Shown here: in pieces, positions 20,206 through 35,453 of the stretch
Layout of the letters: each line of letters begins with the position of its first letter
How positions within the stretch are numbered: the stretch's first letter is position 1
Assembly: GCA_948433885.1 (NCBI GenBank)
Contig: CAOJEC010000010.1
Coordinates: 1-35,453 of the forward strand
Direction of reading: 5' to 3'
DNA length: 35,453 bases
Origin: an uncultured bacterium
GTDB taxonomy: Bacteria > Bacillota_I > Bacilli_A > RF39 > UBA660
Translations under genes and position numbers: made by a program
Notes under the pieces: generated by a model
Seen by the model: the letters and a program-made list of their open reading frames with translations, nothing else
The model's database searches: none
What the model was told of the DNA's origin: nothing

Positions 20206-21240
20206 ATGAAAAAAAGTACGATAAACAACATTATAAAATATTCTATCTTCGTCTTACTAGTCGGAGTTACCCTGTATGTAGTTTTTCAAAAAAACGACTT
20301 TGGCAATTTTCTTGCTAATTTGAAAGGAGCCAACTATTGGTTCATATTACTAGGAATCTTATGCATGGTCGTCTTCTTAGGAGCAGAAGCCTCTAACATC
20401 AGGTTGATATTGAAGAATCTAGGACACAAATTGACATTTTTACAGTCCTTCCGTTATTCGTTAGTAGGATTCTTCTTCAGTTCGATCACACCTTCATCTA
20501 CAGGAGGCCAACCTGCCCAAATATATTTCATGAACAAAGACGGAATACCGATCGCACATTCTACTTTGGCTTTGTTAGTAGAACTCATGGGTTATCAGTT
20601 TGCCACCGGATTTTTGGCGATCATCGGTTTTATCTTGAACTTCAAAATGATAGTTTTCGATCTCGGCAAAATCAAGTTTTTGATATTTCTCGGATTGACT
20701 ATAAATTTGATAATCTTATCTGGACTCATCGTGATGATTTTCTCCAAAAGAATCGCCATCAAAATTGTAGAAGGTTTGACCAAAATACTCAAATTTTTCC
20801 ACTATGCAAAAGTAGAAGCATTCGAAAAATCTTTTTTGTCACAAATAGACGAATATCATAAATGCAGCTTGTATTTGAAAGAAAACAAAATAATATTATT
20901 GAAAGCTATTTTGACAAACATCATTCAACTGACCGCTTATCACGCGATTCCTTACTGTGTATACTTAGCTTTCGGTTTGACAGGAGAAAGTGCTATCACG
21001 ATCATATTGATGGAAGCAGTTCTATATGTAGCAGTAGCCTCCCTTCCATTCCCGGGCTCAGTAGGTATAAGTGAAGGCACATTCATGATAATGTTCAAGA
21101 CATTCTTCTCGAGCACATTATTGGGAAGTGCCATGATTATATCTAGAGGAATCAGTTTCTACTTCTTCGTACTTTTGAGTGCTGTAGGAGTCATATGGAG
21201 CTTTTTCAAAAGTAGGAAAAAGAGTATTCCAAATACATAA
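20206..21240 (+). CDS. Flippase-like integral membrane protein (LPG_synthase_TM/UPF0104 family)
   Basis: 344 residues with about eight membrane segments. The stretch SSITPSSTGGQPAQIYFMNKDGI and the later SLPFPGSVGISEGTF are the two conserved loops of the family that includes the membrane half of MprF and the YbhN/AglD-like proteins. The aminoacyl-transferase domain of MprF is absent, so it is not a lysyl-phosphatidylglycerol synthase. A role in moving lipid-linked intermediates is inferred from the family; a glycosyltransferase partner is not adjacent. It has its own promoter and terminator and is monocistronic. Confidence 0.88.
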   Translation: MKKSTINNIIKYSIFVLLVGVTLYVVFQKNDFGNFLANLKGANYWFILLGILCMVVFLGAEASNIRLILKNLGHKLTFLQSFRYSLVGFFFSSITPSSTGGQPAQIYFMNKDGIPIAHSTLALLVELMGYQFATGFLAIIGFILNFKMIVFDLGKIKFLIFLGLTINLIILSGLIVMIFSKRIAIKIVEGLTKILKFFHYAKVEAFEKSFLSQIDEYHKCSLYLKENKIILLKAILTNIIQLTAYHAIPYCVYLAFGLTGESAITIILMEAVLYVAVASLPFPGSVGISEGTFMIMFKTFFSSTLLGSAMIISRGISFYFFVLLSAVGVIWSFFKSRKKSIPNT

Positions 21241-23468: not shown

Positions 23469-23490
23469 AACACAATTTTTGTGTTTTTCT
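23468..23490 (+). terminator. Intrinsic terminator after the 447-residue unknown gene
   Basis: AAACACAA and TTGTGTTT form an 8-bp stem with a short T loop, followed by T residues. It ends less than ten bases before the left inverted repeat of the insertion sequence. Confidence 0.75.
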
Positions 23491-23553
23491 TTTAAATAAA
23501 AGTTGTGTTAAACAAAATGACTGAAAAAAGCAGAAGTATGATATAATATAAAT

Positions 23554-23659
23554 GCCAAACGGAATATAGAAAGGAGATATCCTTAATCAGTTAGTCTATC
23601 TATATTTTGTTTGGCGATAAAATTAATGATTTAGACTAACTGATTAAGGGTATTTTTTT
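23554..23659 (+). promoter_or_regulatory. Transposase leader with two competing long hairpins
   Basis: Hairpin A pairs 23554-23570 with 23599-23615 (17 bp, two G-T pairs). Its loop contains AAGGAG (23571-23576) and the whole left arm of hairpin B. Hairpin B pairs 23581-23598 with 23632-23649, a perfect 18-bp stem. It is followed by seven T residues directly before the transposase ATG at 23660. The only ribosome site at proper distance from that ATG, AAGGG at 23646-23650, lies in the right arm of B. B can therefore both terminate transcription and hide the ribosome site. Confidence 0.7.
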
Positions 23660-24716
23660 ATGAAAATAGAAGAATTAGTAAAAGATTTTAGACCCAGTTA
23701 CAATTATTGAATTTAAAAATTATTTAAACGAAAATATAAAAGATTTATGTTCTACAAAAAATTCTAATTCAAAAGTAATCTCAAAATATAAGAATGAAAC
23801 TGTATATTGTAAAAAATGCGGTTCCAAAGTTCATAGAAATGGCAAAACAAAAAACGGTGTTCAGAAATATATATGTAGTAGCTGCAAAAGAACTTTTTCT
23901 GAAACAACTGACACGACCACTTATCATAGCAAACTTTCGTTTGAAGTATGGAGCAATGTCATAGATAATCTAATAAATGGATTTAGTTTAAAGCGGATAG
24001 CAGAAGAGAATAACATTTCACTTTTAACATCCTTTAGACTTAGACATAAAGTTTTACATGCCCTTAATACATTTATCTTACACATAACACTTTCAGGTAA
24101 TATTCAATCTGATGAAAAATATTTTGGAATAAATTTGAAAGGAACAAAACCAAGCAATATGCCCAGATTTTCTAAGAAAAGAACTTCTACCAAATCTCCA
24201 TACAGAGGGATAAGTCATCATAAAATATGTGTCGTTTCTAGTATTGATGAAAATGATAATCTACTATTGAAGATAGTTGGACTAGGAAGATGTACAACAG
24301 AAATGCTAAATGATTCGTTAGGCTTAAAGATTAATAAAGCCATTTCTATCACAACAGATAGTGCCAGTGCTTATCAAGAGTTTTGTAAAAATAATAATCT
24401 AGTTTTAAATGCTGTTCCATCTGGATTTCATAGTGATGGTCTGATAAATATTTCTGAAATTAACGGAGTTCATTCTCAGTTGGAATCTTGGCTCTCTAAG
24501 TTTAGAGGTATTTCTACTAGACATCTACAAGATTATCTTAATTGGTTTGTCTATGTTTTTACTATGAAAAAAAGATTCAAATTAAGCAAAATCAAAACTG
24601 AATCTTATTCCAAAATTTTAATTGATTCTAATTATATTTCTTCCAATAATTTATTTCATGTTCCCTTACCTATTAATTTAAATATTGCTTATGCTGAATA
24701 TATTAATCAGTCTTAA
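23660..24716 (+). pseudogene. IS1595-family transposase, frameshifted near the start
   Basis: The ATG at 23660 opens a frame that stops after 16 codons. Moving to the next frame near the CCC at 23693-23695 gives one uninterrupted protein to 24716, about 351 residues in all. The likely lesion is one extra C: without it the N-terminus reads MKIEELVKDFRPVTIIEF. The protein has a zinc ribbon (CKKC then CSSC, in the IS1595 spacing) and a DDE core of the ISXO2-like type, with SDEKYF, TTDSASAYQEF and NGVHSQLESWLSKFRG. The remaining long frame would start only at a TTG at 24135 and would lack the zinc ribbon and the first acidic residue. Either the copy is dead, it uses programmed +1 slippage at CCC, or there is a sequencing error. 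Confidence 0.85.
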
Positions 24717-24735
24717 TGTTTAACACAACTTTATA

Positions 24736-24825
24736 TAAAATAAAAACTCACGAACTTTCATTAGTCCGTAAGTTGTCTCCAAATGGAGCGAATCACATAC
24801 AATTTACGAACTCTGTTCTCTTTCT
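24736..24825 (-). ncRNA. Small RNA or attenuator, copy 1
   Basis: On the minus strand a stem of 11 bp forms between 24764-24774 and 24745-24755 with an 8-base loop. It is followed by a T-rich tract. The two C-A mismatches seen on the plus strand become G-U pairs on the minus strand, so the RNA is encoded there. A second segment at 24799-24811 can pair with 24764-24776 over 12 of 13 positions, giving an exclusive alternative hairpin. A CUCC-GGAG mini-stem sits between. The same element recurs at 29974-30083. Its downstream gene, if any, has been replaced by the insertion sequence. Confidence 0.55.
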
Positions 24826-24831
24826 ATAAAT

Positions 24832-24860
24832 ATTATAAATGAATTGTTATTAAATTTCAA
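24832..24860 (-). promoter_or_regulatory. Promoter for small RNA copy 1
   Basis: On the minus strand TTGAAA (24860-24855) and TATAAT (24837-24832) have a 17-base spacer. Transcription should begin near 24825. Confidence 0.6.
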
Positions 24861-24944
24861 TGAGAGTATAGCAAATTTTTGCCATATATAGTATAATTTA
24901 GACATAAGAAATCTTATGATTAAATTAAAGATTGGAGGAAACTA

Positions 24945-25970
24945 ATGGGCAATGAATTAATTAAAAATGATAATGAAATCAATAATATATTTGATAATAT
25001 TAAAGAACTAGTAATTAGTAGTAGAAATAAAGTATATAGTGCGGTAAATACTGAAATGCTTAATCTATATTGGAATATAGGAAAAGCAATTATGGAAATA
25101 CAACAGGGTGATGAAAGAGCAAGTTATGGTGATGCCGTTTTAGAGAAGCTATCACAAAGACTAACTAATGAATTTGGCAAAGGCTTTTCTAAAAGAAATT
25201 TAGAGAGAATGAGAAAGTTTTATATCTATTTTCCAATTGCGACAACAGTGTCGTCGCAATTAAGCTGGTCGCATTATTTAGAAATATTAAAAATAGAAGA
25301 AGAACCTAAAAGGAATTTTTATATTAAAGAAACTATTAACTCTAAATGGAGTGTTAGAGAACTTCAAAGACAAAGAGATTCATTGCTATATGAAAGATTA
25401 ACTTTATCTGCTGATAAAGACAAAATATTAGAATTATCTGAAAAATGACAAATTTTAAGGACAAGTAAGGATTTAGTAAAAGATCCATTTGTTTTGGAGT
25501 TTTTAGATATAAAAGAAAATACAAATTATCTAGAATCTGATTTAGAAAAAAATATTATAGAACATTTAAAAGAGTTTTTATTGGAACTTGGGAAAGGTTT
25601 TAGTTATGTTGGGAATCAAGTAAGATTAACTTTGGAGGAGGAACATTTTTATCCAGATTTAGTTTTCTATAACAGACTTTTAAAGTGTTTTGTCATAATA
25701 GATTTAAAAATAGGAAAAGTGACACACCAAGATATAGGTCAAATGCAAATGTATGTTAATTATTATGATAGAGAAATAAAGCAAGATGATGAAAATAGAA
25801 CTGTAGGAATATTATTATCAACAAATAAAAATGAAACTATCGTAAAATATACCCTACCGGAGGATAATAAAACGATATTTTCATCAGAATATAAATTACA
25901 TATGCCAACGGAACGAGAATTAATAGAAGCAGTAGAAGAAGAAAAGAAAAATTTTGAGTTAAATGAATAA
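24945..25970 (+). pseudogene. DUF1016 (YhcG-like) PDDEXK nuclease, one in-frame TGA
   Basis: Without one stop codon the reading frame encodes a 341-residue YhcG/DUF1016 protein, close to the family's usual 340-380. The N-terminal domain has YSAVNTEMLNLYWNIGKAI and the conserved LSWSHYLEIL near the middle. The C-terminal PDDEXK nuclease domain includes YVGNQVRLTL, PDLVFYNR and VIIDLKIG. Codon 168 (25446-25448) is TGA where the family motif LS-x-x-G-Q calls for glycine, so a GGA to TGA change is likely. The frame is unchanged on both sides. A TTG at 25494 could restart only the nuclease half. Family members are linked to phage defence and restriction islands. GGAGG precedes the start at 24945. 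Confidence 0.85.
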
Positions 25971-26023
25971 ATCTAATTATGGCGAAATTGCCATATTTAA
26001 ATTTAAAAATAGGAGGAAATAAA

Positions 26024-26566
26024 ATGAGTGAAAATTATATAATAATTCATGGGAGTTTTGGCTCAAAAGATGGTAATTGGTTTCCTTGGTTAAAGAAAGA
26101 ATTAGAGCAAAAAGAAAAGCAGGTCGTAGTTCCACAAATGCCAATTGGTGTTGGCAATCAAAATTTTGAAAACTGGTCTAATGTTTTAAATGAATTAACT
26201 ATAAATGAAAATACTATTATAATTGCACATAGTATTGCACCAATATTCGTATGCAAATATTTAATAACAAATAAGATTAAAGTTAAAAAATTAATATTTG
26301 TATGTGGATTTAATAATTATTTAGGGATTGATTCAGATTTTGATACTGTTAATGAACCTATGTTTATTGACAACTTTACTGATGTTAAAAAATATTGTTC
26401 TGATATAATATGCTATTATTCAGATAATGATCCATACGTTAAATATGATATCGAAAAAGAATTTGCTGATAAACTAACAAATAAACAATATGTTATCAAA
26501 AATGGCGGTCACATAAATGCAGAAACAGGTTATACTAAATTTGAAGAAATACTAAAGGAGATATAA
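26024..26566 (+). CDS. RBBP9/YdeN-type serine hydrolase
   Basis: 180 residues, a small alpha/beta hydrolase. IIIHGSFGS at 6-14 is the oxyanion-side loop, Ser70 in AHSIAP is the nucleophile, Asp136 in SDNDPYV and His163 in NGGHINAETGY complete the triad. This spacing matches S75, D138 and H165 of human RBBP9. The substrate is unknown. The start at 26024 is set by AGGAGG seven bases before it; an earlier in-frame ATG at 25979 has no ribosome site. The gene follows the broken nuclease gene by about 50 bases and the methyltransferase gene begins four bases after its stop, so they are probably co-transcribed. Confidence 0.85.
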   Translation: MSENYIIIHGSFGSKDGNWFPWLKKELEQKEKQVVVPQMPIGVGNQNFENWSNVLNELTINENTIIIAHSIAPIFVCKYLITNKIKVKKLIFVCGFNNYLGIDSDFDTVNEPMFIDNFTDVKKYCSDIICYYSDNDPYVKYDIEKEFADKLTNKQYVIKNGGHINAETGYTKFEEILKEI

Positions 26567-26570
26567 TTTA

Positions 26571-27242
26571 ATGGAAACAAATATAACTTCTTTTGATAAA
26601 AGAAATGGTGTAAAAAAGAATTATGATTTGATAGCAAAACAATATAGTAAAGATTTTGGGACTTTTATTGAAGACTTAGATGTTTACGAAGAATTTGAAA
26701 AATATCTTCCACCAAATGCTAGAATTTTAGATTTGGGTGCTGGCTCTGGAAGAACATATTCTTACTTTAATAAAAGAAATTATAAATACATAGGCTTGGA
26801 TTTCTCTAAAGAAATGAAAGATTGTGCATTTGCAATACATGGTGAATTTCCATATATTTTAGATGATATGACTAATTTAAAAAAATATTTTAATGCTAAT
26901 TCGGTAGATGGTATATTTGCAGTTTATTCTTTATTTCATTTACCAAAAGATGATTTAAAAAAATTATTATCCGATATTTATGATATTTTAAAGGTTAATG
27001 GGATCTTTCTTTTTACATATCAAATTGGATCAGGCGAAGAAATGGCAGATGAACCATATTTAAAAAATAAAGGGGTTAAAGTTTTATATATGAATTATCA
27101 AACAAATGAAGAAATGAAAAATCTTTTAACTCCATATTCATATAAAAAACTTTATAGAAAAGAAAAGATTGAAACATCTGATTCGGCTATTAATAGTAAC
27201 TCTGTCACTACTGCCTTTGTGTTATTGAAAAAAATTAAATAG
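26571..27242 (+). CDS. Class I SAM-dependent methyltransferase
   Basis: 223 residues. Motif I DLGAGSGR is at 54-61, the acidic end of the second strand is Asp77 in GLDFSKEM, and DGIFAVYSLFHLPKDD gives motif IV and the post-IV helix. The Methyltransf_25/11 type acts on small molecules as often as on RNA or protein, so no substrate is assigned. AAGGAG lies before the ATG in the tail of the hydrolase gene, and the pair likely works together or travels together as cargo. It runs convergent to the recombinase-tnpV operon. Confidence 0.88.
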   Translation: METNITSFDKRNGVKKNYDLIAKQYSKDFGTFIEDLDVYEEFEKYLPPNARILDLGAGSGRTYSYFNKRNYKYIGLDFSKEMKDCAFAIHGEFPYILDDMTNLKKYFNANSVDGIFAVYSLFHLPKDDLKKLLSDIYDILKVNGIFLFTYQIGSGEEMADEPYLKNKGVKVLYMNYQTNEEMKNLLTPYSYKKLYRKEKIETSDSAINSNSVTTAFVLLKKIK

Positions 27243-27313
27243 TCCTTTGAAAGGGATGGGAACTTCCCATAATAGAAAACGTGCGGGAGTAGGTTTTCAG
27301 TGCTGGCTAGGAC
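27242..27313. other. Structured, relatively GC-rich 72-base segment (5S-like fragment?)
   Basis: An outer stem GTCCT (27242-27246) and AGGAC (27309-27313) encloses three smaller hairpins. These are CCTTT-G-AAAGG, TGGGAA-C-TTCCCA, and GAAAAC with GTTTTC around a 12-base loop. It is noticeably richer in G and C than everything around it. The strings GGGAGTAGG and TTCCCATA are reminiscent of conserved parts of 5S rRNA, but they occur in the wrong order and spacing for an intact gene. It may be an RNA remnant or a compact structured RNA. Confidence 0.35.
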
Positions 27314-27357
27314 ATAACAATGCATCTGTTTTCACACATTTTTAAGGTTAATTTTAA

Positions 27358-27386
27358 AGGACTGCTTGTTTTGCAGTCCTATTTTC
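27358..27386. terminator. Terminator between convergent methyltransferase and tnpV genes
   Basis: AGGACTGC (27358-27365), a 7-base loop and GCAGTCCT (27373-27380) form an 8-bp stem, followed by ATTTT on the plus strand. The minus strand has TTTAAAATT after the stem, so it may act in both directions. Confidence 0.65.
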
Positions 27387-27738
27387 ATACATAAATTAGT
27401 TCTTTTAAGATAATTTCTTCAGCCATAATTTTATAATTATTCATTAGTCTCACCCATTGAAGTTGGTTATCCATTTTGCTTTTTTCGGATAGTAACTCAT
27501 CAGAATTTTTGTATTGTTCCATTAAAATATTTAATCTATTTTTGGTTTCAATACTGACTGAAACAAGATGATTTGCGAGTTCATTTTGCATTAAAAGTGT
27601 TGTATAAAGTGCTTTATTGTTTTTCTTTAAGTATTGTAATCTTAAATATCCATACTTGTTAATTTTTTCATTGTTTTGTTTTTCTATTGTTAAATTTGGT
27701 AATAAATAATCGCCAACTTTTATATAATTTAATTCCAT
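27385..27738 (-). CDS. tnpV: Transposon-encoded protein TnpV
   Basis: 117 residues matching the TnpV family of Tn4451/Tn4453: KVGDYLLPNL near the N-terminus, a KYGYLRLQYLKKNNKALYTTL block, and the C-terminal QWVRLMNNYKIMAEEIILKELIY. Its biochemical role is not established; in Tn4451 it is not essential for excision by the large recombinase. It is the last gene of a leftward operon that begins with the recombinase. AGAG lies before the ATG at 27738 and only four bases separate it from the preceding gene. It is the clearest marker of the element's family. Confidence 0.88.
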   Translation of the reverse strand: MELNYIKVGDYLLPNLTIEKQNNEKINKYGYLRLQYLKKNNKALYTTLLMQNELANHLVSVSIETKNRLNILMEQYKNSDELLSEKSKMDNQLQWVRLMNNYKIMAEEIILKELIYV

Positions 27739-27742
27739 TTTT

Positions 27743-27985
27743 TCATCTCTCCATTTCTTTATTTTTAATATTTCTTTCGTAAAAATCTACTGTTTTAGTT
27801 TTGTTATTGTATTTAAAATAACCTTGCTCTTTGTTTTTATCTATAACTTTAATTGTAAATCTATCAATTAAATAGACAGCAAACTCACCAATAGATAGTT
27901 GCTTTTTTAGATAATCAAGAACCTTAAATTGTTCTACAGTATCTACTTGATTCTTTAAAATATTTTCTTTTGTTAATTGTCTCAT
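27743..27985 (-). CDS. Small unknown protein of the recombinase operon
   Basis: 80 residues, not recognised. AAAGGAG lies before the ATG at 27985. The sequence has a helical N-terminus (ENILKNQVDTVEQFKVLDYLKKQL) and a beta-rich Lys/Tyr C-terminal half (EQGYFKYNNKTKTVDFYER), without metal or membrane motifs. It sits between another small gene and tnpV. Size and position suggest an accessory protein of the element, such as an excision helper or DNA-binding regulator; nothing in the residues proves either. Confidence 0.7.
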   Translation of the reverse strand: MRQLTKENILKNQVDTVEQFKVLDYLKKQLSIGEFAVYLIDRFTIKVIDKNKEQGYFKYNNKTKTVDFYERNIKNKEMER

Positions 27986-28003
27986 TGCTAACTCCTTTCA
28001 TTT

Positions 28004-28210
28004 TTAATTTGCTTTTACTACTTCTTTTTTTGGAACTAATAATAGAAAATCTTTAGAAACATTCCCTTCAAAATAAGGACTGCCAATTATACCATTTACA
28101 TAAAAATGACTGTGTGCTTTAGCAAAAAAATCATCTACAAACTCACTCGGATATTCATTTCTTGTCATTTTTAAAATAGACAAAACATTATAATCTTTTT
28201 TCTTAATCAA
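28004..28210 (-). CDS. Small unknown protein overlapping the recombinase gene
   Basis: 68 residues, not recognised. It starts with TTG at 28210, overlapping the last eight bases of the recombinase gene, with no separate ribosome site, so it depends on translational coupling. Motifs such as TRNEYPSEFVDDFFAKAHSHFY are well conserved-looking, and the C-terminus is basic. An alternative is that the start is an internal codon and the protein shorter. The position directly after a serine recombinase suggests an accessory role. Confidence 0.55.
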   Translation of the reverse strand: MIKKKDYNVLSILKMTRNEYPSEFVDDFFAKAHSHFYVNGIIGSPYFEGNVSKDFLLLVPKKEVVKAN

Positions 28211-29450
28211 GAGTTATTTTCTTTTTGTTCAGTTTCTCAATTTCCTTTTTGATAACCTCATTTTTATGATTAATCGTTTCAACATCTAGGGTAGAACTTA
28301 AATATAAATCTACTAACTTTTTTTCCTGTAATTTCAACTTTTCAATCGTTTTTTCTATCTCTTTTACATCATTACTTTTTGTAGAATTACAAGTGATAAT
28401 TTCATTATTTGTTCCCATCATAAAGATAGTTAATTCTTCTAAAACTCGTCTTAATTTAACTTCTATTTTCTCGGTATTATAATGAAGTCCATATCCACTA
28501 CAATTATGATTTTTACATCTTAAATGATAATAAACTTTTTGTTTTCCATTTGGATATTTAAAAGATTCTGATGAAGCCATAATACTACCACATATCGGAC
28601 ATTTCACTAATCCTGAAAACAAATGAATAAACTCTCCATAATTTGAGTGCTTATTTTTCACTAATACATTTCGAGTAGCATTCCAAGTAACTTCATCAAT
28701 AATCGGCTCGCAATAGTCTTTTACTCTTAAAATATCTTTTTGCTTTCTTTTGTATTTTCCATATTCAAATATACCAATATAAATAGAATTAGTAAGTATT
28801 TTATAAACTCTATCGGCTCGCCATTTGCCTTGTTTTAAATAAGCATTATTGTCTTGCATAATCGTAGCAATACCTCTAGTAGAGTGTCCTTCTTGGCATA
28901 GTTTAAATATTTCCTTTACAACTTGGGCTTCAATAGGCTCTATTTCTAAATGTCCTGTATCTTTGTTTCTAACATAGCCATAAGGTGCTTTACTGGGATG
29001 GATATGTTCAAGTGCCATTTCCTCCATTGCTCTTTTTGTTCTTGCTCCAATTTCTTTTCTTTCTCTCTGACCAAATACTAAATTCATACCAAATATCATT
29101 TCACCATTAGCAGTAGATACATCATAAGGCTCTAATATTAATTCTATTTTAACATCATGTTCTTCACAATAATTTAAAAGCCAAAAGCCATCATAGTTGT
29201 TTCTGGTAAGTCTATCTACCTTAATAGCAATTAACTTATCAATCTTTTTAGATTTAATATCTGCAAGTAATCTTTGCATTTCTGGTCGCATTAAATCTTT
29301 TCCAGAATGACCTGCATCATTATAAACATCTACGATACTATAATCGTTTTTCTCACAATATTCTTTAATCATACGAAGTTGTGAATCAATAGAGTAACCA
29401 TTATCTCTTTGGTCATCTGTACTTACTCTTACATATACTGCACATCTCAT
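28203..29450 (-). CDS. Serine recombinase (large serine integrase class)
   Basis: 415 residues. The catalytic resolvase domain (about 1-150) begins VYVRVSTDDQ with nucleophile Ser10 and has the usual IAIKVDRLTRN and the GQRERKEIGARTKRAM helix. The recombinase domain (about 155-265) follows with APYGYVRN and KILTNSIYIG. A zinc ribbon uses Cys284, Cys287, Cys312 and Cys317. A coiled-coil stretch runs from about 360 to the end. It would integrate and excise the element by site-specific recombination, making and joining two-base staggered cuts. It is shorter than TnpX (707) and than most integrases (450-600); the coiled coil stops abruptly, so truncation is possible. The ATG at 29450 lies after AGGAG. 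Confidence 0.92.
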   Translation of the reverse strand: MRCAVYVRVSTDDQRDNGYSIDSQLRMIKEYCEKNDYSIVDVYNDAGHSGKDLMRPEMQRLLADIKSKKIDKLIAIKVDRLTRNNYDGFWLLNYCEEHDVKIELILEPYDVSTANGEMIFGMNLVFGQRERKEIGARTKRAMEEMALEHIHPSKAPYGYVRNKDTGHLEIEPIEAQVVKEIFKLCQEGHSTRGIATIMQDNNAYLKQGKWRADRVYKILTNSIYIGIFEYGKYKRKQKDILRVKDYCEPIIDEVTWNATRNVLVKNKHSNYGEFIHLFSGLVKCPICGSIMASSESFKYPNGKQKVYYHLRCKNHNCSGYGLHYNTEKIEVKLRRVLEELTIFMMGTNNEIITCNSTKSNDVKEIEKTIEKLKLQEKKLVDLYLSSTLDVETINHKNEVIKKEIEKLNKKKITLD

Positions 29451-29460
29451 AAAATAATCA

Positions 29461-29637
29461 TCTCCTCACTTGTTTCCTCACTCAAAAGCAAAAAAACAGA
29501 CATCAATTATGAAAAAAGTTAAAATTTTACGCATTTTTTACACTTTTTTCATTAGTTTTCTCACTTAAAGTGGCTTTTACGAAGTCTAATTTGAAAAATT
29601 AGTCCTCTCATCTGTTTCCTCACTAAAACGGAAAAAG
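29461..29637. repeat. Repeated TGTTTCCTCACT sites upstream of the recombinase gene
   Basis: The 12-base core occurs at 29471-29482 and 29613-29624, each preceded by TCCTC and followed by A-rich sequence. A related GTTTTCTCACT is at 29555-29565. A 7-bp palindrome, CTAATTT-GAA-AAATTAG (29586-29602), lies between. The gap 29451-29643 has no gene. They may be binding sites for the element's own regulator or recombinase. Confidence 0.45.
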
Positions 29638-29643
29638 TAAAGT

Positions 29644-29928
29644 CTAAAATTTCAATTTCTTTAAAATTTGGATTAGTTCTGATAATGAATATTTTTGATT
29701 ATGTTCTTTAATATAAAACGGTTTGTTAGATATTTCGTTAATTTTATATTCTAGTATTGTAAGAGTAGTAGGATATGTAATTTGATACTCTGTAGGCTCT
29801 ATAACTTGTAAATTAGTATGTAATAAGTGTTTAACTGTTCCTTTTTTAACTTTGTAGGTGTAATCTTTAATAACTTCCAAAATTTCACTATTTGGCTTTA
29901 ATGTTTCAATCGTTTTAAATTCTAACAT
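29644..29928 (-). CDS. Small unknown protein upstream of the recombinase
   Basis: 94 residues, not recognised. AGGAGG lies nine bases before the ATG at 29928 (a TTG three bases earlier is also possible). The middle has the strand-rich TEYQITYPTTLTILEYKIN and the C-terminus KYSLSELIQILKKLKF is a likely amphipathic helix. It lies directly downstream of small RNA copy 2, whose terminator would sit in its 5' leader, so the RNA could control this gene and the recombinase after it. It may be a regulator of the element. Confidence 0.65.
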   Translation of the reverse strand: MLEFKTIETLKPNSEILEVIKDYTYKVKKGTVKHLLHTNLQVIEPTEYQITYPTTLTILEYKINEISNKPFYIKEHNQKYSLSELIQILKKLKF

Positions 29929-29973
29929 CAAAAAAGTCCTCCTTCCTAGAAAGAGAACTTTAAGTTTTATATA

Positions 29974-30083
29974 AAATAAAAACTCACGAACCTTTTATAG
30001 TCCGTAAGTTGTTTTCAAATGGAGCGACAATAGAGCCTATTTCGAACTCTTGCTCAAAAGTAAGATTGATAAATATCAAATCT
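29974..30083 (-). ncRNA. Small RNA or attenuator, copy 2
   Basis: It shares with copy 1 a 25-base identical block (29967-29991), a 15-base block ending in GTAAGTTGT (plus strand) and CAAATGGAGCGA. The minus-strand hairpin pairs 30000-30010 with 29981-29991, again with two G-U pairs and an 8-base loop, followed by a T tract. The upstream competing arm is present but interrupted (GTTCG at 30047-30043, then TTGT further on). On the minus strand it precedes the gene at 29928 by about 45 bases, the layout of a transcription attenuator. Confidence 0.55.
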
Positions 30084-30089
30084 ATTAAT

Positions 30090-30117
30090 AATATACCACA
30101 AATTATGATAAATTCAA
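30090..30117 (-). promoter_or_regulatory. Promoter for small RNA copy 2
   Basis: On the minus strand TTGAAT (30117-30112) and TATATT (30095-30090) with a 16-base spacer. On the other strand a TGT-TATAAT extended -10 at 30158-30166 probably serves the gene at 30201, so the two promoters are divergent. Confidence 0.45.
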
Positions 30118-30200
30118 TCAATTTAAGTGAAATTCTACTAAAAAATTAAGTATTTAATGTTATAATATTTATTGAAAAAGTTGCTAGAGGTGATTCTAAC

Positions 30201-30962
30201 ATGATAGATACTTATGAATATTATCAAAAGAATATTAATCAAAATAGTTTTTATTATTTTACTTTTAATAATGATATAGAAACATACTTTGTTTTTAATG
30301 AGGATTTTAAATATTATGATGAAAAAGAACTAATAAATAGATTTAAAGTTTTAACATACCCTTCAAATGATTACCCTGAACCAGTTAATATGGAATTTAT
30401 AATGATTTGTTTTTATCTAAATAATGAAAATTACTATATAGAACAATTTCCTAATTTCCTAGAACGACCAACAAATGTTGCAGATTTCTCATTAGAAATA
30501 AGGGAATATATTTTAGCGCAGGGAAATAGCTCTGGAGTGGTTGCTTGGGCTACAAGAAGAAATGTAGCAAATAATTTGAAATTTTCAAAAAAAGATAATA
30601 CAAATATAAAAGTTAGTGACGACTTAAACCAACTATTTAAAAAAATATCAAATAGAAATGCTGATTTTATTTTAATGTCAGAAGATGAAAAGTTAGAAGA
30701 AATTAATAATGTAATAGAAAATATATTAAAAATTAATAATAAATGGGCAGATATTGATTATAAAAATGAATCTTTTGATTTTATTTCAAATGATTTAGTA
30801 ATTAAATACAGAAAATTAATACACTGCTTTAGACATGGCTCTGAAAATTCAATAAAAGAAAGAGAAAAAATTAGTAAAAATCAGAAAGAATTTTTAATTA
30901 ATTATGGCATAACTATATGTGAATTATTGTTGAATGCTATTAGAAATAAAAATGAAAGTTAA
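30201..30962 (+). CDS. Unknown protein opening the three-gene cassette
   Basis: 253 residues, not recognised. GAGGTGA lies before the ATG at 30201 and an extended -10 at 30158-30166. There is no signal peptide or membrane segment. About 110-125 reads AQGNSSGVVAWATRRNV. The C-terminal 60 residues are helical and contain YRKLIHCFRHGSENSIKERE followed by ICELLLNAI. The latter recalls the C-terminal helices of HEPN-like or abortive-infection proteins, but the Arg-His spacing does not fit the usual R-x4-6-H motif, so this is only a hint. The next gene begins 20 bases downstream, so the three genes 30201-33487 form an operon. Confidence 0.75.
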   Translation: MIDTYEYYQKNINQNSFYYFTFNNDIETYFVFNEDFKYYDEKELINRFKVLTYPSNDYPEPVNMEFIMICFYLNNENYYIEQFPNFLERPTNVADFSLEIREYILAQGNSSGVVAWATRRNVANNLKFSKKDNTNIKVSDDLNQLFKKISNRNADFILMSEDEKLEEINNVIENILKINNKWADIDYKNESFDFISNDLVIKYRKLIHCFRHGSENSIKEREKISKNQKEFLINYGITICELLLNAIRNKNES

Positions 30963-30982
30963 GTTATTGAGGTGTGATTCAA

Positions 30983-31507
30983 ATGAAAGTATATATAGTA
31001 AGACATGGACAAGTACCACATAATGCTTTAGGACAGTATAATACAGCAGATGAAGATCTAACTGAATTGGGAATACAACAAGCAGAAGAATTAAAAGATA
31101 AAATTAAAAATTTCCATTTTGATATTGTTATTTCTTCGCCTCTATTGAGGGCAACACATACAGAATATATTCTTACTAATTATGATAGTAGTATAATTAC
31201 AGATGAAAGATTAAGGGAAAGAAGTTGTGGAACGTTAAGTGGACAACCACTTGAAGTTACCAATAGAGAGGAATATTGGAATTATAATAGTAATATCCAA
31301 TATGGAATTAATGAAAATATTCAAGACTTTTTTAAAAGAGTTTATGCTTTTCTAGATGAGTTAAAAACTAAAGATTATAAAAGTGTTTTAATAGTTGCTC
31401 ACAGTGGAGTATCAAAGGCATTTAGTGGCTATTTTGAAGGAATACAAGACGGAAAATTTTTAAATAGAGGATTAAAGAATTGTGAAATTAAGGAGTATGA
31501 ATTATAG
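30983..31507 (+). CDS. Histidine phosphatase superfamily protein
   Basis: 174 residues of the phosphoglycerate-mutase-like branch 1. The phosphorylated His8 is in VRHGQ, Arg56 in SSPLLRATHT, Glu79 in LRERSCG and His140 in IVAHSGVSKAF complete the phosphate pocket. It most likely hydrolyses a phosphomonoester of a small molecule or nucleotide; the mutase reaction is unlikely at this size. The ATG at 30983 is preceded by GAGGTG; an in-frame GTG nine bases earlier overlaps that site. It lies between the unknown gene and the HD-kinase fusion in one operon, suggesting a shared nucleotide or phospho-metabolite pathway. Confidence 0.87.
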   Translation: MKVYIVRHGQVPHNALGQYNTADEDLTELGIQQAEELKDKIKNFHFDIVISSPLLRATHTEYILTNYDSSIITDERLRERSCGTLSGQPLEVTNREEYWNYNSNIQYGINENIQDFFKRVYAFLDELKTKDYKSVLIVAHSGVSKAFSGYFEGIQDGKFLNRGLKNCEIKEYEL

Positions 31508-31522
31508 AGAAGGTTTTAGATA

Positions 31523-33487
31523 ATGAAGGATATAAACAAACAATTACAACAGTATGTTGAAGAAAAAATATTTCCAATATATGAGAATAACGATTCAGGG
31601 CATAGTATTGATCATATTAAATATGTAATTAAAAGAAGTTTTGAATTTGCTAATCAATTTGAAAATATAGATTTTAATATGGTGTATGTAATAGCCTCTT
31701 TTCACGATTTGGCACACCATATTGATAAAGATAATCACGAAGTTTTATCAGCTAAATTATTTTATGAAAAAGAGAAGATGAAAGAATTTTTTACTTATGA
31801 ACAAAGAAAGATTATAAAAGAAGCAATAGAAGACCATAGAGCAAGCCTAGAATATGAACCTAGAAGTGATTATGGAAAGATAATATCTTCTGCTGATAGA
31901 AATGTTGATATAATGTCATCATTAAAAAGAACACATTCTTATACCACTAAACATTATCCAGAGTTAGATTTAAGTGGGATGATTACTCGTGCATATAAAC
32001 ATATCAGTAAAAAATTTGGGGATTGTGGTTATGCAAAAATGTGGCTTGTTGATAAAGAATTTGATAAATTTAAAGATGATGTCAAAGAGTTATTAAAGGA
32101 TAAATATATATTTGGGGTTAAGTATATGGAGGTAAATGATATTATGGATATTAAAGAAAAAGCAAAATTGTTCGCTATAAGAGCACATATGGGACAAGTT
32201 AGAAAAAGTGAACCAGATAAACCTATGATTATGCATCCAATTGGTGTAGGTCAGTTATTAGAATCATTTGGATATGATGATAATGTTGTAGCAGCTGGAT
32301 ACTTGCATGATGTTGTAGAAGATACAAAATACACAATTGAAGATATAGAAAAAGAGTTTGGTAGTGATATTGCTTCTTTGGTTATGGGTGCTTCTGAACC
32401 AGATAAATCTCTATCTTGGGAAGAAAGAAAAAAGCATACAATTGAAGAAACTACAAAATTACCTTTACGAAATAAATTAGTTATTTGTGCAGATAAGATT
32501 AATAATTTAGAAGATTTATTTTTGAAGTTTGAAAAGAGTGGAGAAAGAGATTTTTCAGCATTCAAAAGAGGTGAAGAACAGCAAACATGGTACTATACAA
32601 GTATTTATGAAAGCTTAATTGCTGGAGAAGATAAAGATTTACCTATTTTTATAAGATTAAAGGATATACTAGATAAAGTGTTCTATAAAAAAGAAGATTT
32701 ATTTTTAAGAGATACTATTTTTGTTGATAATTTAGATTATTATGCAAAATTAAGACAATTACATGCTATGAAAATAGAACTTCAAAAGTTAAAATCATTG
32801 TGTCAACTATCTAAGCCTTTTGTTATTGAATTTAGTGGTACACCTAGAACAGGAAAAACAACTACAATCAATAATTTATATGATTTCTTTAAAAAAGGTG
32901 GATTTAATGTAGAATTAATTGAAGAATTTACAACATCAAAATATTATAAAGAAAATTTAAAAAAGAAATTTGATCAAATGAATTTAGGTGATGGAAACAT
33001 TGCAATTATAGATGAAGTATATAAACAATTACAAGGTTCTCTTGAATCTGACAAAGATATTATATTAATTGATAGATCAATTAATGACAGACAAATTTGG
33101 AATTATAGAAGATATATTAGAGGTGATATGCCAGAGGAACAATATTTTAATGCTAGAGATAAATATAAAGCAATTTCAAAGGAACTCATTGATTTTCTCC
33201 TTATCACATATGCTGATCCAATGGTTTCGTTAAAAGGAGATTATGTATCTAGTTTAGCTTTAGAAAAAAGGAACTTCTTAAATCAAGAAAATATAGAAGA
33301 GTATAATACTTGTTTAAATGCTTTACAAGGTTTATTTTCTGAAAGTGTTGATTCTATGCTTTTACTTGATACTTCTAATATAGAATTAAATGATGTCTCT
33401 ATTGAAGCAACATCTCAAATTCTACCTGCTATGCGAAAAAGATATATAAAAGCATTTGAGCAAAAATATGATTTGATTAAAAAATAA
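31523..33487 (+). CDS. HD hydrolase - RelA/SpoT-type HD hydrolase - P-loop kinase fusion
   Basis: 654 residues in three domains. Domain 1 (about 1-200) is a YedJ-like HD phosphohydrolase with His31, His61-Asp62 and an SSADR motif. Domain 2 (about 208-370) is an alarmone-hydrolase (MESH1/SpoT) type HD domain. His238 in MHP, His262-Asp263 in LHDVVED and Asp324 in CADKINNL are spaced like H35, H61-D62 and D122 of MESH1. No (p)ppGpp synthetase domain follows. Domain 3 (about 430-654) starts with Walker A GTPRTGKTT (439-447) and has DRSINDRQIWNYRRYIRGD; it resembles nucleoside or nucleotide kinases. Together with the histidine phosphatase, three phosphohydrolases and a kinase are encoded side by side, pointing to nucleotide-signal or nucleotide-pool control. 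The substrate is inferred only. The gene ends at a terminator. Confidence 0.85.
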   Translation: MKDINKQLQQYVEEKIFPIYENNDSGHSIDHIKYVIKRSFEFANQFENIDFNMVYVIASFHDLAHHIDKDNHEVLSAKLFYEKEKMKEFFTYEQRKIIKEAIEDHRASLEYEPRSDYGKIISSADRNVDIMSSLKRTHSYTTKHYPELDLSGMITRAYKHISKKFGDCGYAKMWLVDKEFDKFKDDVKELLKDKYIFGVKYMEVNDIMDIKEKAKLFAIRAHMGQVRKSEPDKPMIMHPIGVGQLLESFGYDDNVVAAGYLHDVVEDTKYTIEDIEKEFGSDIASLVMGASEPDKSLSWEERKKHTIEETTKLPLRNKLVICADKINNLEDLFLKFEKSGERDFSAFKRGEEQQTWYYTSIYESLIAGEDKDLPIFIRLKDILDKVFYKKEDLFLRDTIFVDNLDYYAKLRQLHAMKIELQKLKSLCQLSKPFVIEFSGTPRTGKTTTINNLYDFFKKGGFNVELIEEFTTSKYYKENLKKKFDQMNLGDGNIAIIDEVYKQLQGSLESDKDIILIDRSINDRQIWNYRRYIRGDMPEEQYFNARDKYKAISKELIDFLLITYADPMVSLKGDYVSSLALEKRNFLNQENIEEYNTCLNALQGLFSESVDSMLLLDTSNIELNDVSIEATSQILPAMRKRYIKAFEQKYDLIKK

Positions 33488-33493
33488 TTTTGG

Positions 33494-33525
33494 TAGTTTA
33501 GAGCCTAACGTTCTAAACTATCTTT
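33494..33525. terminator. Terminator between the convergent cassette and relaxase genes
   Basis: TAGTTTAGA (33494-33502) and TCTAAACTA (33512-33520) form a 9-bp stem with a 9-base loop, followed by TCTTTTT on the plus strand. The relaxase stop codon (33505-33507) lies in the loop. Confidence 0.75.
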
Positions 33526-34893
33526 TTCATTTGAATAATAATTACTTTGAATATAATCCATATCCTCATTGTCTAAAATTTCTTCTTCTAACATTTCATC
33601 AAGAACTTGTTCATAAATTTTATCTTCATATTTTGAACTGAAAAATTTATCTTGAAAGAAATCTCGTATTCTTTGCCATAATTGTTGCCATGCTTGAATT
33701 ATTTTTTCTAATCTTGAAATTTCTTTTTCTAAATTTTTGATTTCTTCACGTTGCTCTGCAATTTTATCTTGTTTAGTGATATTCTGTTTTTCAAGAATTT
33801 TAATTTTTTTTGATTGATTGTCTACCATTACTTTTAAATCACTAACTTCTTTATCGTGAGTTTTTAAATCTTGCTCAAAATCTTCCATAAGTGAAGTTAA
33901 ATCATTTACACTTTTTATATCATTTACATTTTTATCAACATTTTCAATGTAATTATGAATAACATTTATTTCTTCATCATTAATAATAAAATTATTTTTA
34001 GTAATTTTAGTTGGCTTTAAATTAGAAATAATTTCTTTTACCTCTTTAGATTTTGAAAGAGTAAATTCAGTTTGGCGATTTACTTTTTCTAACCTTTGTC
34101 TATTTTTATCAGCTTGTTTTTTTAGATAATCATATTGCTTACTCATATTTTTAGATTCAATATCTTCATTTCTACCTTCTATTTTTTCTAATAATTCAAT
34201 ATTGGTTTGATAAATTTTATTAAATGATTCTTTACAATATATTCTTATAGTATCTTGAATTTCTCTTAATGATTCTTTTGTAAATATAGTAGATTTACCA
34301 ACTTGTTTTTTCATACCATTTTTATTTCCATCTTTAACGGGATCACCAACAATATGTAAATGAGGACTAGCTTCATCATAATGTACAACTGCATTTGCTA
34401 CTTTAAAAGATGGAATAATTTTTTCTAAATCTCTAATTTGTTCTTTAAAAACTTCTGTCATTTTTCTTTTATATGTTTCATCTTTATCTTTCCAAAATTC
34501 CATATTACCAAGTTCAATAATTATTTCAACCGCCAAATCATTTTTATCATTATTAGAAATATGAGAAAAATAATCTTCAATTTTTCTATCATTTCGTGTT
34601 TGTTTTTCATTGTATTCAAGTCTTGCTACATCAAATTCCTCTACATATAATTTTTTCACATCTTCATAAAGACTATTCGTTCCACAAATGAGTTCAATTG
34701 CATTTTCGTTATCATCGTATTTTCTTAAATTATGTTTATCAACTCGTGATAATTGTTGTGCATTTTGAATTGCATTATTATTAAAAACTTTATCAGCAAC
34801 AACACCATTCTTAATAGTTTTTCTTGATCTTTTACTTTTATTTTTATCATTTCCAATATGAAATGAATATGCTAATTTTTGTATAAATATCAT
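33505..34893 (-). CDS. MobV-family relaxase (Mob/Pre plasmid recombination protein)
   Basis: About 462 residues. The relaxase domain occupies the first 230. The metal-binding motif VVHYDEASPHLHIVG fits the MobV pattern H-x-D-E-x-x-P-H-x-H (His171, His178, His180 from the 34893 start). The N-terminal motif AYSFHIGN and the mid motif EYNEKQTRNDRKIEDYF are also family-like. The C-terminal half is a long coiled coil (about 240-420), then an acidic tail. It would nick the element at its oriT and lead one strand into a recipient, using another element's conjugation pore. The ATG at 34893 sits immediately after AAGGAG, an oddly short spacing, so the true start may differ by a few codons. TnpZ of Tn4451 is of this family. 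Confidence 0.9.
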   Translation of the reverse strand: MIFIQKLAYSFHIGNDKNKSKRSRKTIKNGVVADKVFNNNAIQNAQQLSRVDKHNLRKYDDNENAIELICGTNSLYEDVKKLYVEEFDVARLEYNEKQTRNDRKIEDYFSHISNNDKNDLAVEIIIELGNMEFWKDKDETYKRKMTEVFKEQIRDLEKIIPSFKVANAVVHYDEASPHLHIVGDPVKDGNKNGMKKQVGKSTIFTKESLREIQDTIRIYCKESFNKIYQTNIELLEKIEGRNEDIESKNMSKQYDYLKKQADKNRQRLEKVNRQTEFTLSKSKEVKEIISNLKPTKITKNNFIINDEEINVIHNYIENVDKNVNDIKSVNDLTSLMEDFEQDLKTHDKEVSDLKVMVDNQSKKIKILEKQNITKQDKIAEQREEIKNLEKEISRLEKIIQAWQQLWQRIRDFFQDKFFSSKYEDKIYEQVLDEMLEEEILDNEDMDYIQSNYYSNEKDSLER

Positions 34894-34967
34894 CTCCTTA
34901 ATCTTTACTATTTTGAGGTTTTCTAAATACTCGTAGAGTAGATAGGAAACCAAGACAAAATTTCTAA

Positions 34968-35088
34968 CTCCCTATATGTTTTGACACAAGTATCAAAACA
35001 TGGGAGCTAAGGTTTACCACCTTAGAACCGTTAGTCTTATTTCGTAATATTCCCAAACTATTGTAAAGGAATAAAACTACATAAGACT
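34968..35088. other. Candidate oriT: array of inverted repeats upstream of the relaxase
   Basis: Several dyads lie in a row. ATGTTTTGA (34976-34984) pairs with TCAAAACAT (34993-35001), flanked by CTCCC (34968-34972) and GGGAG (35002-35006). CTAAGGT (35007-35013) pairs with ACCTTAG (35019-35025). AGTCTTAT (35033-35040) pairs with ATAAGACT (35081-35088), enclosing TATTCC/GGAATA (35048-35053 and 35068-35073). Dense dyads just upstream of a relaxase gene are typical of oriT. I could not locate a MobV nick consensus. Confidence 0.5.
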
Positions 35089-35202
35089 TAGAAAAACAAG
35101 AAAGTACAACTTTCTCATTTTTCTATGAAAATTATTCGTGATTCCACAAACTTCGTAAGTGAAATTTCTCATAATTTTTATACAAACTATCGCCACTTTC
35201 AT
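35077..35202 (-). CDS. Possible 41-residue micro-protein
   Basis: An ATG at 35202 opens a 41-codon frame ending at the TAG at 35077-35079. The product is basic and ends in a hydrophobic stretch (KLYFLVFLSLM). There is no clear ribosome site before the ATG, and the frame crosses one arm of the inverted repeats assigned to the oriT, so it may be coincidental. Confidence 0.2.
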   Translation of the reverse strand: MKVAIVCIKIMRNFTYEVCGITNNFHRKMRKLYFLVFLSLM

Positions 35203-35259
35203 TTGCTAAAGCAAACAGAAACGTGCCACGTTTGTTATTACTTTTTTGGAAAAAAGTAA
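35202..35259. repeat. Three adjacent palindromes
   Basis: TTTGC-TAAA-GCAAA (35202-35215), AAACGTG-C-CACGTTT (35219-35233) and TTACTTTTTT-GG-AAAAAAGTAA (35238-35259) lie within 58 bases. The last is a perfect 22-base palindrome apart from its central GG. They follow the partial gene at 35278 on the minus strand and may serve as its terminator or as part of the oriT region. Confidence 0.6.
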
Positions 35260-35277
35260 ACAAAAAACCATGAATTA

Positions 35278-35453
35278 TCACAATTCATAGTCATCATTTT
35301 TTTCTAATATATATTCATTACTTGTAATATCATTTGGTGGAATTGCAGAAAATAATTCTTCTTCATTTTCAACACGAGTTTCATTATCTTTTGATACACC
35401 AATCATTCCCATATTGATTTTTGTTTTTGTTGTATCAAATTTTTCTAATGGAA
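35278..35453 (-). CDS. 3' end of an unknown gene of the element (partial)
   Basis: Only the last 58 codons are inside the window; the start lies beyond the right edge. The frame is open from the edge to a TGA at 35278-35280. The visible C-terminus is acidic (NETRVENEEELFSAIPPND and EKNDDYEL at the end), without a recognisable motif. Its position upstream of the relaxase region and in the same direction suggests another element gene, perhaps for mobilization or replication. The family cannot be told from this fragment. Confidence 0.6.
   Translation of the reverse strand, partial: PLEKFDTTKTKINMGMIGVSKDNETRVENEEELFSAIPPNDITSNEYILEKNDDYEL

Follow-up and report, generated by a model that had tools for sequence, protein, structure and literature searches.

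In phage lambda, sib retroregulation provides a post-transcriptional control element for int that lies across attP, and integration alters int expression. In the Clostridium elements Tn4451 and Tn4453, which use the large serine recombinase TnpX, the Tn4451 circle is reported to form a promoter for the recombinase; to our knowledge these elements are not reported at tRNA ends, and we know of no split RNA structure in them. State-dependent switching of integrase promoters has been described for ICEKp1 of Klebsiella pneumoniae, together with ICEclc and ICEEc1, with a tyrosine integrase (PMC13023037). The ICEKp1 integrase is transcribed from the tRNA promoter when the element is integrated, with attenuation by a stem-loop in the 5'-UTR, and from a promoter at the far end when it is excised, and the authors suggest, as a suggestion only, that a 15-bp sequence of the 3' end might pair with stem-loop SL3 and destabilise it (PMC13023037). 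According to a review of IMEs, the site-specific ones with a serine recombinase disrupt dispensable genes, and tRNA 3' ends are listed there for tyrosine recombinases (PMC5704250).

The locus considered here comes from an uncultured bacterium and lies in a window (the whole stretch of DNA that was analysed; contig CAOJEC010000010.1 of assembly GCA_948433885.1) of 35,453 nucleotides. It quite likely holds the pair of attachment sites of a mobile element that uses tRNA ends and whose own two ends, P and P', would carry the parts of a split RNA switch that opens the recombinase operon in the excised circle, a reading drawn from comparison with relatives and from predicted folds. Two 62-nt repeats in the same orientation, at 24730-24791 (copy 1) and 29966-30027 (copy 2), are identical at 56 of 62 positions (90%) and spaced 5,236 bp apart, which bears out the report in an earlier note on this DNA of an element duplicated about 5.2 kb apart. 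The sequence common to the copies begins at GCTCCATTTG and the halves upstream of GCTCCATTTG are unrelated, so that the duplicated unit is the downstream half only, that is the core and the terminator. A search of the bacterium's own genome returned copy 2 at E = 2.9e-18 and two further copies, on contigs C44 and C56, at E <= 3e-21. On both contigs the 3' end of a tRNA-Gly gene runs straight into the repeat, which is followed by the same 94-aa ORF, after which the full-length recombinase follows on C44 and the recombinase begins at the contig end on C56. This joining of the downstream half to tRNA 3' ends elsewhere in the genome was absent from the earlier note.

Scanning bacterial genomes for the recombinase yielded 80 loci; their MAGs carry labels such as uncultured Bacilli, Tenericutes and Clostridia. 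The earlier note had proposed looking for the element upstream of other serine-recombinase operons, and at 45 of the 80 loci the recombinase does begin 420-800 nt past a tRNA 3' end with the same arm, here called P', in between; the tRNAs are mostly Gly and Thr, also Cys, Leu, Tyr and Phe. In relatives a second conserved arm (P) is found at the other end, 2-7 kb from the recombinase; past it come the same core and then chromosomal sequence that varies. The core consists of the discriminator base plus CCA, with GCTCCA in both arms of the Gly and Thr elements and GCACCA in both arms of the tRNA-Phe elements, and across 41 elements only this short core, GCTCCA or GCACCA, is common to the tRNA, the P' arm, the P arm and the flank. 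As the repeat continues tRNA 3' ends and the same core stands in both arms, the repeats are, on sequence grounds, the attachment sites of a serine-recombinase mobile element that inserts at the CCA end of tRNA genes. Of 386 genomes sampled from this family of uncultured bacteria, 97 contain a match to the P' arm. Searches of plasmid and phage collections gave no meaningful DNA match, and the relatives of the recombinase on plasmids have less than about 36% identity. After the P-arm core in loci L092-L170 the same few sequences recur, e.g. TTGACGAATCTGTTCGAAC... and TTAAGTAAAATCGTCGCACC..., as though other families of elements shared these tRNA 3' ends in tandem.

Element A of the window, at about 24785-30020, is tandemly arranged and partly decayed, with its recombinase operon and cargo between copy 2 and copy 1. 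Its attachment sites, genes and neighbours are as follows.

24784-24789, minus strand: copy 1 core GCTCCA (acceptor end of the tRNA with CCA), which is the right-hand attachment site of element A; a second P'-type arm is joined to it.
30020-30025, minus strand: copy 2 core GCTCCA, which is the left-hand attachment site of element A; the P arm of neighbouring element B is joined to it.
30026-30130, minus strand: P arm of element B, with a weak promoter and without segment a (see below), not homologous to the upstream half of copy 1.
29644-29928, minus strand: 94-aa ORF, always between attachment site and recombinase.
28203-29450, minus strand: serine recombinase, truncated (415 aa against 596 aa on contig C44).
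27385-27985, minus strand: a small ORF of 80 aa and a TnpV-like gene, both downstream of the recombinase, with PF14198 for 27385-27738.
24945-27242, plus strand: cargo, comprising a split DUF1016/YhcG nuclease gene, a serine hydrolase and a methyltransferase.
23485-24746, plus strand: IS1595-like insertion sequence, which truncates the arm downstream of copy 1.

The recombinase scores well above the cutoff for the resolvase domain PF00239 and the recombinase domain PF07508, and the zinc ribbon PF13408 scores 23.8 on C44 (cutoff 25.3) and 26.0 in the window. A C-terminal remnant of the element A recombinase lies in another frame near 28000-28200, and since the window recombinase is truncated the element is probably no longer active. 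The 94-aa protein is conserved (42 sequences) and has a confident predicted fold (pLDDT 89.9); it gave no match in Pfam or NCBIfam, no confident match in PHROG, and no match in structure searches of PDB and BFVD. An imperfect direct repeat (74%; 29452-29494 and 29594-29636), placed between the recombinase and the 94-aa ORF, is a possible further regulatory or binding site. Among the cargo, the nuclease gene at 24945-25970 is split by an in-frame stop near 25446, and the copy on C44 (L009:1602-2627) is intact.

The left neighbour of element A is a truncated P'-type arm cut by the IS1595-like element, so that copy 1 abuts an insertion sequence just as the earlier note had it. The inverted repeat ends of that insertion sequence are at about 23485-23524 and 24707-24746, and its DDE_Tnp_IS1595 match at 24135-24716 scores 26.6, just under the cutoff of 27; within it, a 22-bp inverted repeat (23577-23653, 95% complementary, 33-nt spacer) lies upstream of the transposase remnant. 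On the right the upstream half of copy 2 is the end of a different element, B, and the window therefore holds a tandem array that shares one tRNA-type core. Element B, in the region 30026-35453 of the window, carries a MobV-like relaxase. Foreign arms like that of copy 2 also stand upstream of recombinases in L096, L097, L102, L106 and others.

The P arm has the order TTGAAA-N17-TATAAT promoter, AGAAAGAGAAC (segment a), GTTCGTAANNTGT (m1), and copy 1 is this arm joined to a P'-type arm.

24832-24860, minus strand: P-arm promoter of element A, TTGAAA-N17-TATAAT, 11 of 12 consensus matches, kept at the outer end of relatives.
24815-24825, minus strand: segment a, AGAAAGAGAAC, where the transcript is predicted to begin; its complement is a' (29948-29958), with which it covaries across 41 elements.

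A minus-strand promoter had been claimed for each copy, and this holds well for copy 1, where it is near consensus (11/12), and less so for copy 2, whose weak site has 9 of 12 matches and an extended -10 and is of a kind of which four were found against 1.6 expected. Judged by its position and direction, the far-end promoter would point at the recombinase operon only after the ends join.

The downstream half begins with a terminator, one strand of which also forms an inverted repeat with the P arm.

24745-24774, minus strand: copy 1 terminator hairpin, 12-pair stem and U tail, cut off downstream by the insertion sequence.
29981-30010, minus strand: copy 2 terminator hairpin (m2-m3), first feature of the P' arm, with compensatory changes in relatives.
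24799-24811, minus strand: segment m1, GTTCGTAAATTGT, outer arm of the attP dyad, which could act as an antiterminator; 12 of 13 positions complementary to m2, conserved.
30000-30012, minus strand: segment m2, ACAACTTACGGAC, which is both the left terminator arm and the inner arm of the attP dyad.

The terminator stems seen earlier are present in both copies, each of 12 pairs with a U tail, where shuffled sequences lead one to expect 0.0. Across relatives the stem is 95.6% paired with double changes present; homologues that lack compensatory changes in the stems had been named as grounds for abandoning the element, and the terminator stem in relatives does show such changes. At the sequence level a terminator is present between the tRNA and the recombinase operon. 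The further claim, that each copy has a 5' segment able to pair with the left arm of the terminator, stands for copy 1 (12/13); in copy 2 only about 6 contiguous pairs can form, because the upstream halves of the copies are unrelated. No RNA family could be named at the outset, and Rfam searches of the window agree, with no match at the gathering threshold; at E <= 1 copy 1 had none and copy 2 a best E of 0.3, far below gathering scores. The suggestion of an attenuator or a stand-alone regulatory RNA survives in part. Regulation by RNA structure is supported, since promoter, terminator and alternative pairing are kept in relatives and the terminator stem has compensatory changes, but the unit itself is the attachment site of a mobile element.

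Two uses of the m1-m2 pairing have to be weighed. A transcription attenuator, in which m1 pairs with m2 and blocks the terminator so that the operon is transcribed, with or without an extra signal, would draw on a complementarity of 11-12 out of 13 in nearly all elements (90.6% paired), on the fact that m1 is transcribed first, and on four elements (L139, L151, L159 and L110) in which a large part of the ensemble has m1-m2. It is nevertheless a rather doubtful account: in folded circle leaders the terminator dominates most elements (on average 11.4 terminator pairs to 2.4 m1-m2 pairs), copy 2 and the sites behind tRNAs have no m1 or an unrelated sequence in its place, and the fixed mismatches point to a DNA half-site. 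The attP of a large serine integrase is expected to be a dyad of about 48 bp, and m1 and m2 are imperfect inverted repeats of 13 nt on either side of the core, separated by about 22 bp and spanning 48 bp. Because two central positions of the helix are mostly unpaired (22/31 and 12/31 sequences) and the terminator outcompetes the helix in most elements, m1-m2 looks mainly like a recombinase-binding dyad and would be better read so than as an antiterminator. As the main switch it was rejected, the terminator winning on folding in most elements.

In the better-supported RNA switch the anti-Shine-Dalgarno strand would pair with the transcript's 5' end, a pairing that is present only after the ends join. 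Two further features of the P' arm are concerned.

29933-29961, minus strand: hairpin hiding the Shine-Dalgarno sequence GAAGGAGGAC of the 94-aa ORF, 13-pair stem, with covariation.
29948-29958, minus strand: segment a', GTTCTCTTTCT, which has two alternative partners, the Shine-Dalgarno strand and, in the circle, segment a.

The hairpin is 92.9% paired, with double changes and with covariation that includes a UA/AU exchange. Segment a' is located just past the terminator, and when the ends of the 41 elements are rejoined AGAAAGAGAAC pairs with GUUCUCUUUCU; in the chromosome a and a' are kilobases apart and they meet only once the ends are joined. The earlier note did not have this complementarity between the 5' end of the copy 1 transcript and the region before the ribosome-binding site downstream of copy 2. 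The a-a' helix is 93.4% paired with double changes present, and its duplex dG in the 41 elements is -16.55 for cognate against -15.04 for swapped pairs (z = -5.85, 0 of 5000 permutations), relatedness between the elements not being removed from these figures. The variable extension alone gives z = -2.2 and the 11-bp core z = -2.5; control windows elsewhere in the P' or P arm range from z = -3.2 to +3.3, and the peak lies only over a'. In the most divergent element (L171, about 60% recombinase identity) a, a' and the Shine-Dalgarno strand have changed together, and in L146, L141, L156 and L145 the helix is extended with different complementary sequences. Part of the complementarity could come from an inherited duplication, because segment a resembles the Shine-Dalgarno strand.

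Folding predictions give the Shine-Dalgarno sequence an opening probability of 0.346 in circle leaders, against 0.013 when segment a is shuffled (over the first 13 nt), 0.013 for the tRNA plus P' arm (n=24) and 0.009 for the P' arm alone (Wilcoxon p = 9e-12). Behind foreign upstream arms, that of copy 2 in the window among them, the sequence stays closed (predicted opening 0.001-0.035), and in 9 of the 41 elements the predicted opening in the circle is below 0.1. RNAalifold applied to the joined leaders returned the terminator and the Shine-Dalgarno hairpin and not a-a', as is expected if a-a' is an alternative state. A conserved hairpin that hides the Shine-Dalgarno sequence and an upstream strand that competes with it, which are what a translational switch calls for, are thus both found in the predicted folds.

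It has to be asked whether all this could be no more than attachment-site architecture, the symmetric segments being DNA bound by the recombinase, the terminator a replacement for the tRNA's own, promoter relocation sufficient for expression and a-a' functionless. The m1-m2 dyad has the size of a serine-integrase attP (13-nt arms about 22 bp apart, 48 bp) and fixed central mismatches, and promoter relocation alone is an established strategy (ICEKp1 and ICEclc; PMC13023037). Such a reading is unlikely, however, given that a-a' covaries between distant ends and competes with the conserved Shine-Dalgarno hairpin, and recombinase binding fails to explain a-a' because the pair is asymmetric about the crossover and its spacing varies between elements.

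Joined P-P' junctions are rare in chromosomes. Among 385 genomes of the order three have one, in each case decayed: that of the window is truncated by the insertion sequence, L172 has the Shine-Dalgarno hairpin inverted and the ORF cut, and L173 is without the ORF. In L172 (G468:C28 near 20231-20274) the hairpin segment is inverted in place. None of the assemblies searched showed an intact P-P' junction that runs into an intact operon, and a search of viral contigs for joined element ends gave no hit. The rarity is in keeping with the idea that chromosomes do not retain a permanently open operon, with only three cases to go by. It also bears on a stand-alone small RNA made from each copy and acting in trans, for example on the Shine-Dalgarno hairpin of other copies. 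Copy 1, with promoter, segment a and terminator, would yield an RNA of about 80 nt carrying a, and a could pair with the a' of other mRNAs; the proposal is very improbable all the same, as the upstream halves differ between copies, the terminator belongs to the tRNA transcription unit in most loci and the junctions occur in only those 3 of 385 genomes. A stand-alone small RNA gene was rejected, the upstream halves of the copies being unrelated and the same downstream half following tRNAs.

The switch split between P and P' would work as follows. The P' arm carries the terminator, the hairpin that masks the ribosome-binding site, and the genes for the 94-aa protein and the recombinase, and the P arm an outward promoter and segment a. 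In the integrated state the P' arm would lie behind the tRNA, where the element's terminator would end the tRNA transcript and any read-through RNA would keep the ribosome-binding site closed, so that recombinase is low, the operon is quiet and the tRNA still works. On excision the ends would join in a circle and the P promoter would now face the operon; the 5' end of the RNA, segment a, would pair with the hiding strand and free the ribosome-binding site, and the resulting expression would favour reintegration, with some role, we infer, for the 94-aa protein, which may or may not be a directionality factor. Against this proposal stands the terminator, which stays folded in most circle leaders and would have to be passed there by RNA polymerase; the m1-m2 helix could help transcription past it in a minority of elements. 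The element can thus probably sense from its own RNA whether it is integrated, and it is somewhat likely that the attachment site splits a riboregulator for which recombination itself would be the input signal, with neither ligand nor protein. If true, this would give a mobile element a direct RNA readout of its own state, and would offer a compact, ligand-free design for toggling translation by DNA recombination.

In the open-access literature searched, with subscription papers mostly outside it, neither a translational switch split by attP nor serine recombinases at tRNA 3' ends of this kind are described, and an RNA switch that attP divides in two, backed by comparison and belonging to a serine recombinase, appears to be new. 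The analysis supplies comparative evidence, from a recombinase class and a phylum unrelated to those of ICEKp1, for the pairing across the junction that was only a suggestion there, and places serine recombinases among elements using tRNA ends, with a defined core (discriminator base plus CCA). With the serine-recombinase IMEs of Firmicutes the present elements share a single serine recombinase, a small mobilisable or non-autonomous nature and Firmicutes-like hosts, but unlike the serine IMEs of the review they use tRNA 3' ends and restore them (PMC5704250). As in ICEKp1, insertion is at a tRNA 3' end, the tRNA terminator is displaced, read-through from the tRNA into the integrase operon would be damped by a stem-loop of the 5'-UTR and a promoter at the other end would take over after circularisation. 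ICEKp1, however, has a tyrosine integrase, belongs to Proteobacteria and is without a described Shine-Dalgarno switch, whereas a serine recombinase and another host are found here, and the cross-junction pairing, supported by comparing 41 elements, has as its target the ribosome-binding site of an ORF that precedes the recombinase gene. Recombinase class, host and pairing target all differing, the present elements are not members of the ICEKp1 family. They resemble Tn4451 and Tn4453 in being serine-recombinase mobilisable elements with a TnpV-like gene downstream. As with lambda sib, an element of integrase control would lie across attP; sib acts on the 3' side through RNase III, whereas the split parts here are segments of a 5' leader that would act on a ribosome-binding site.
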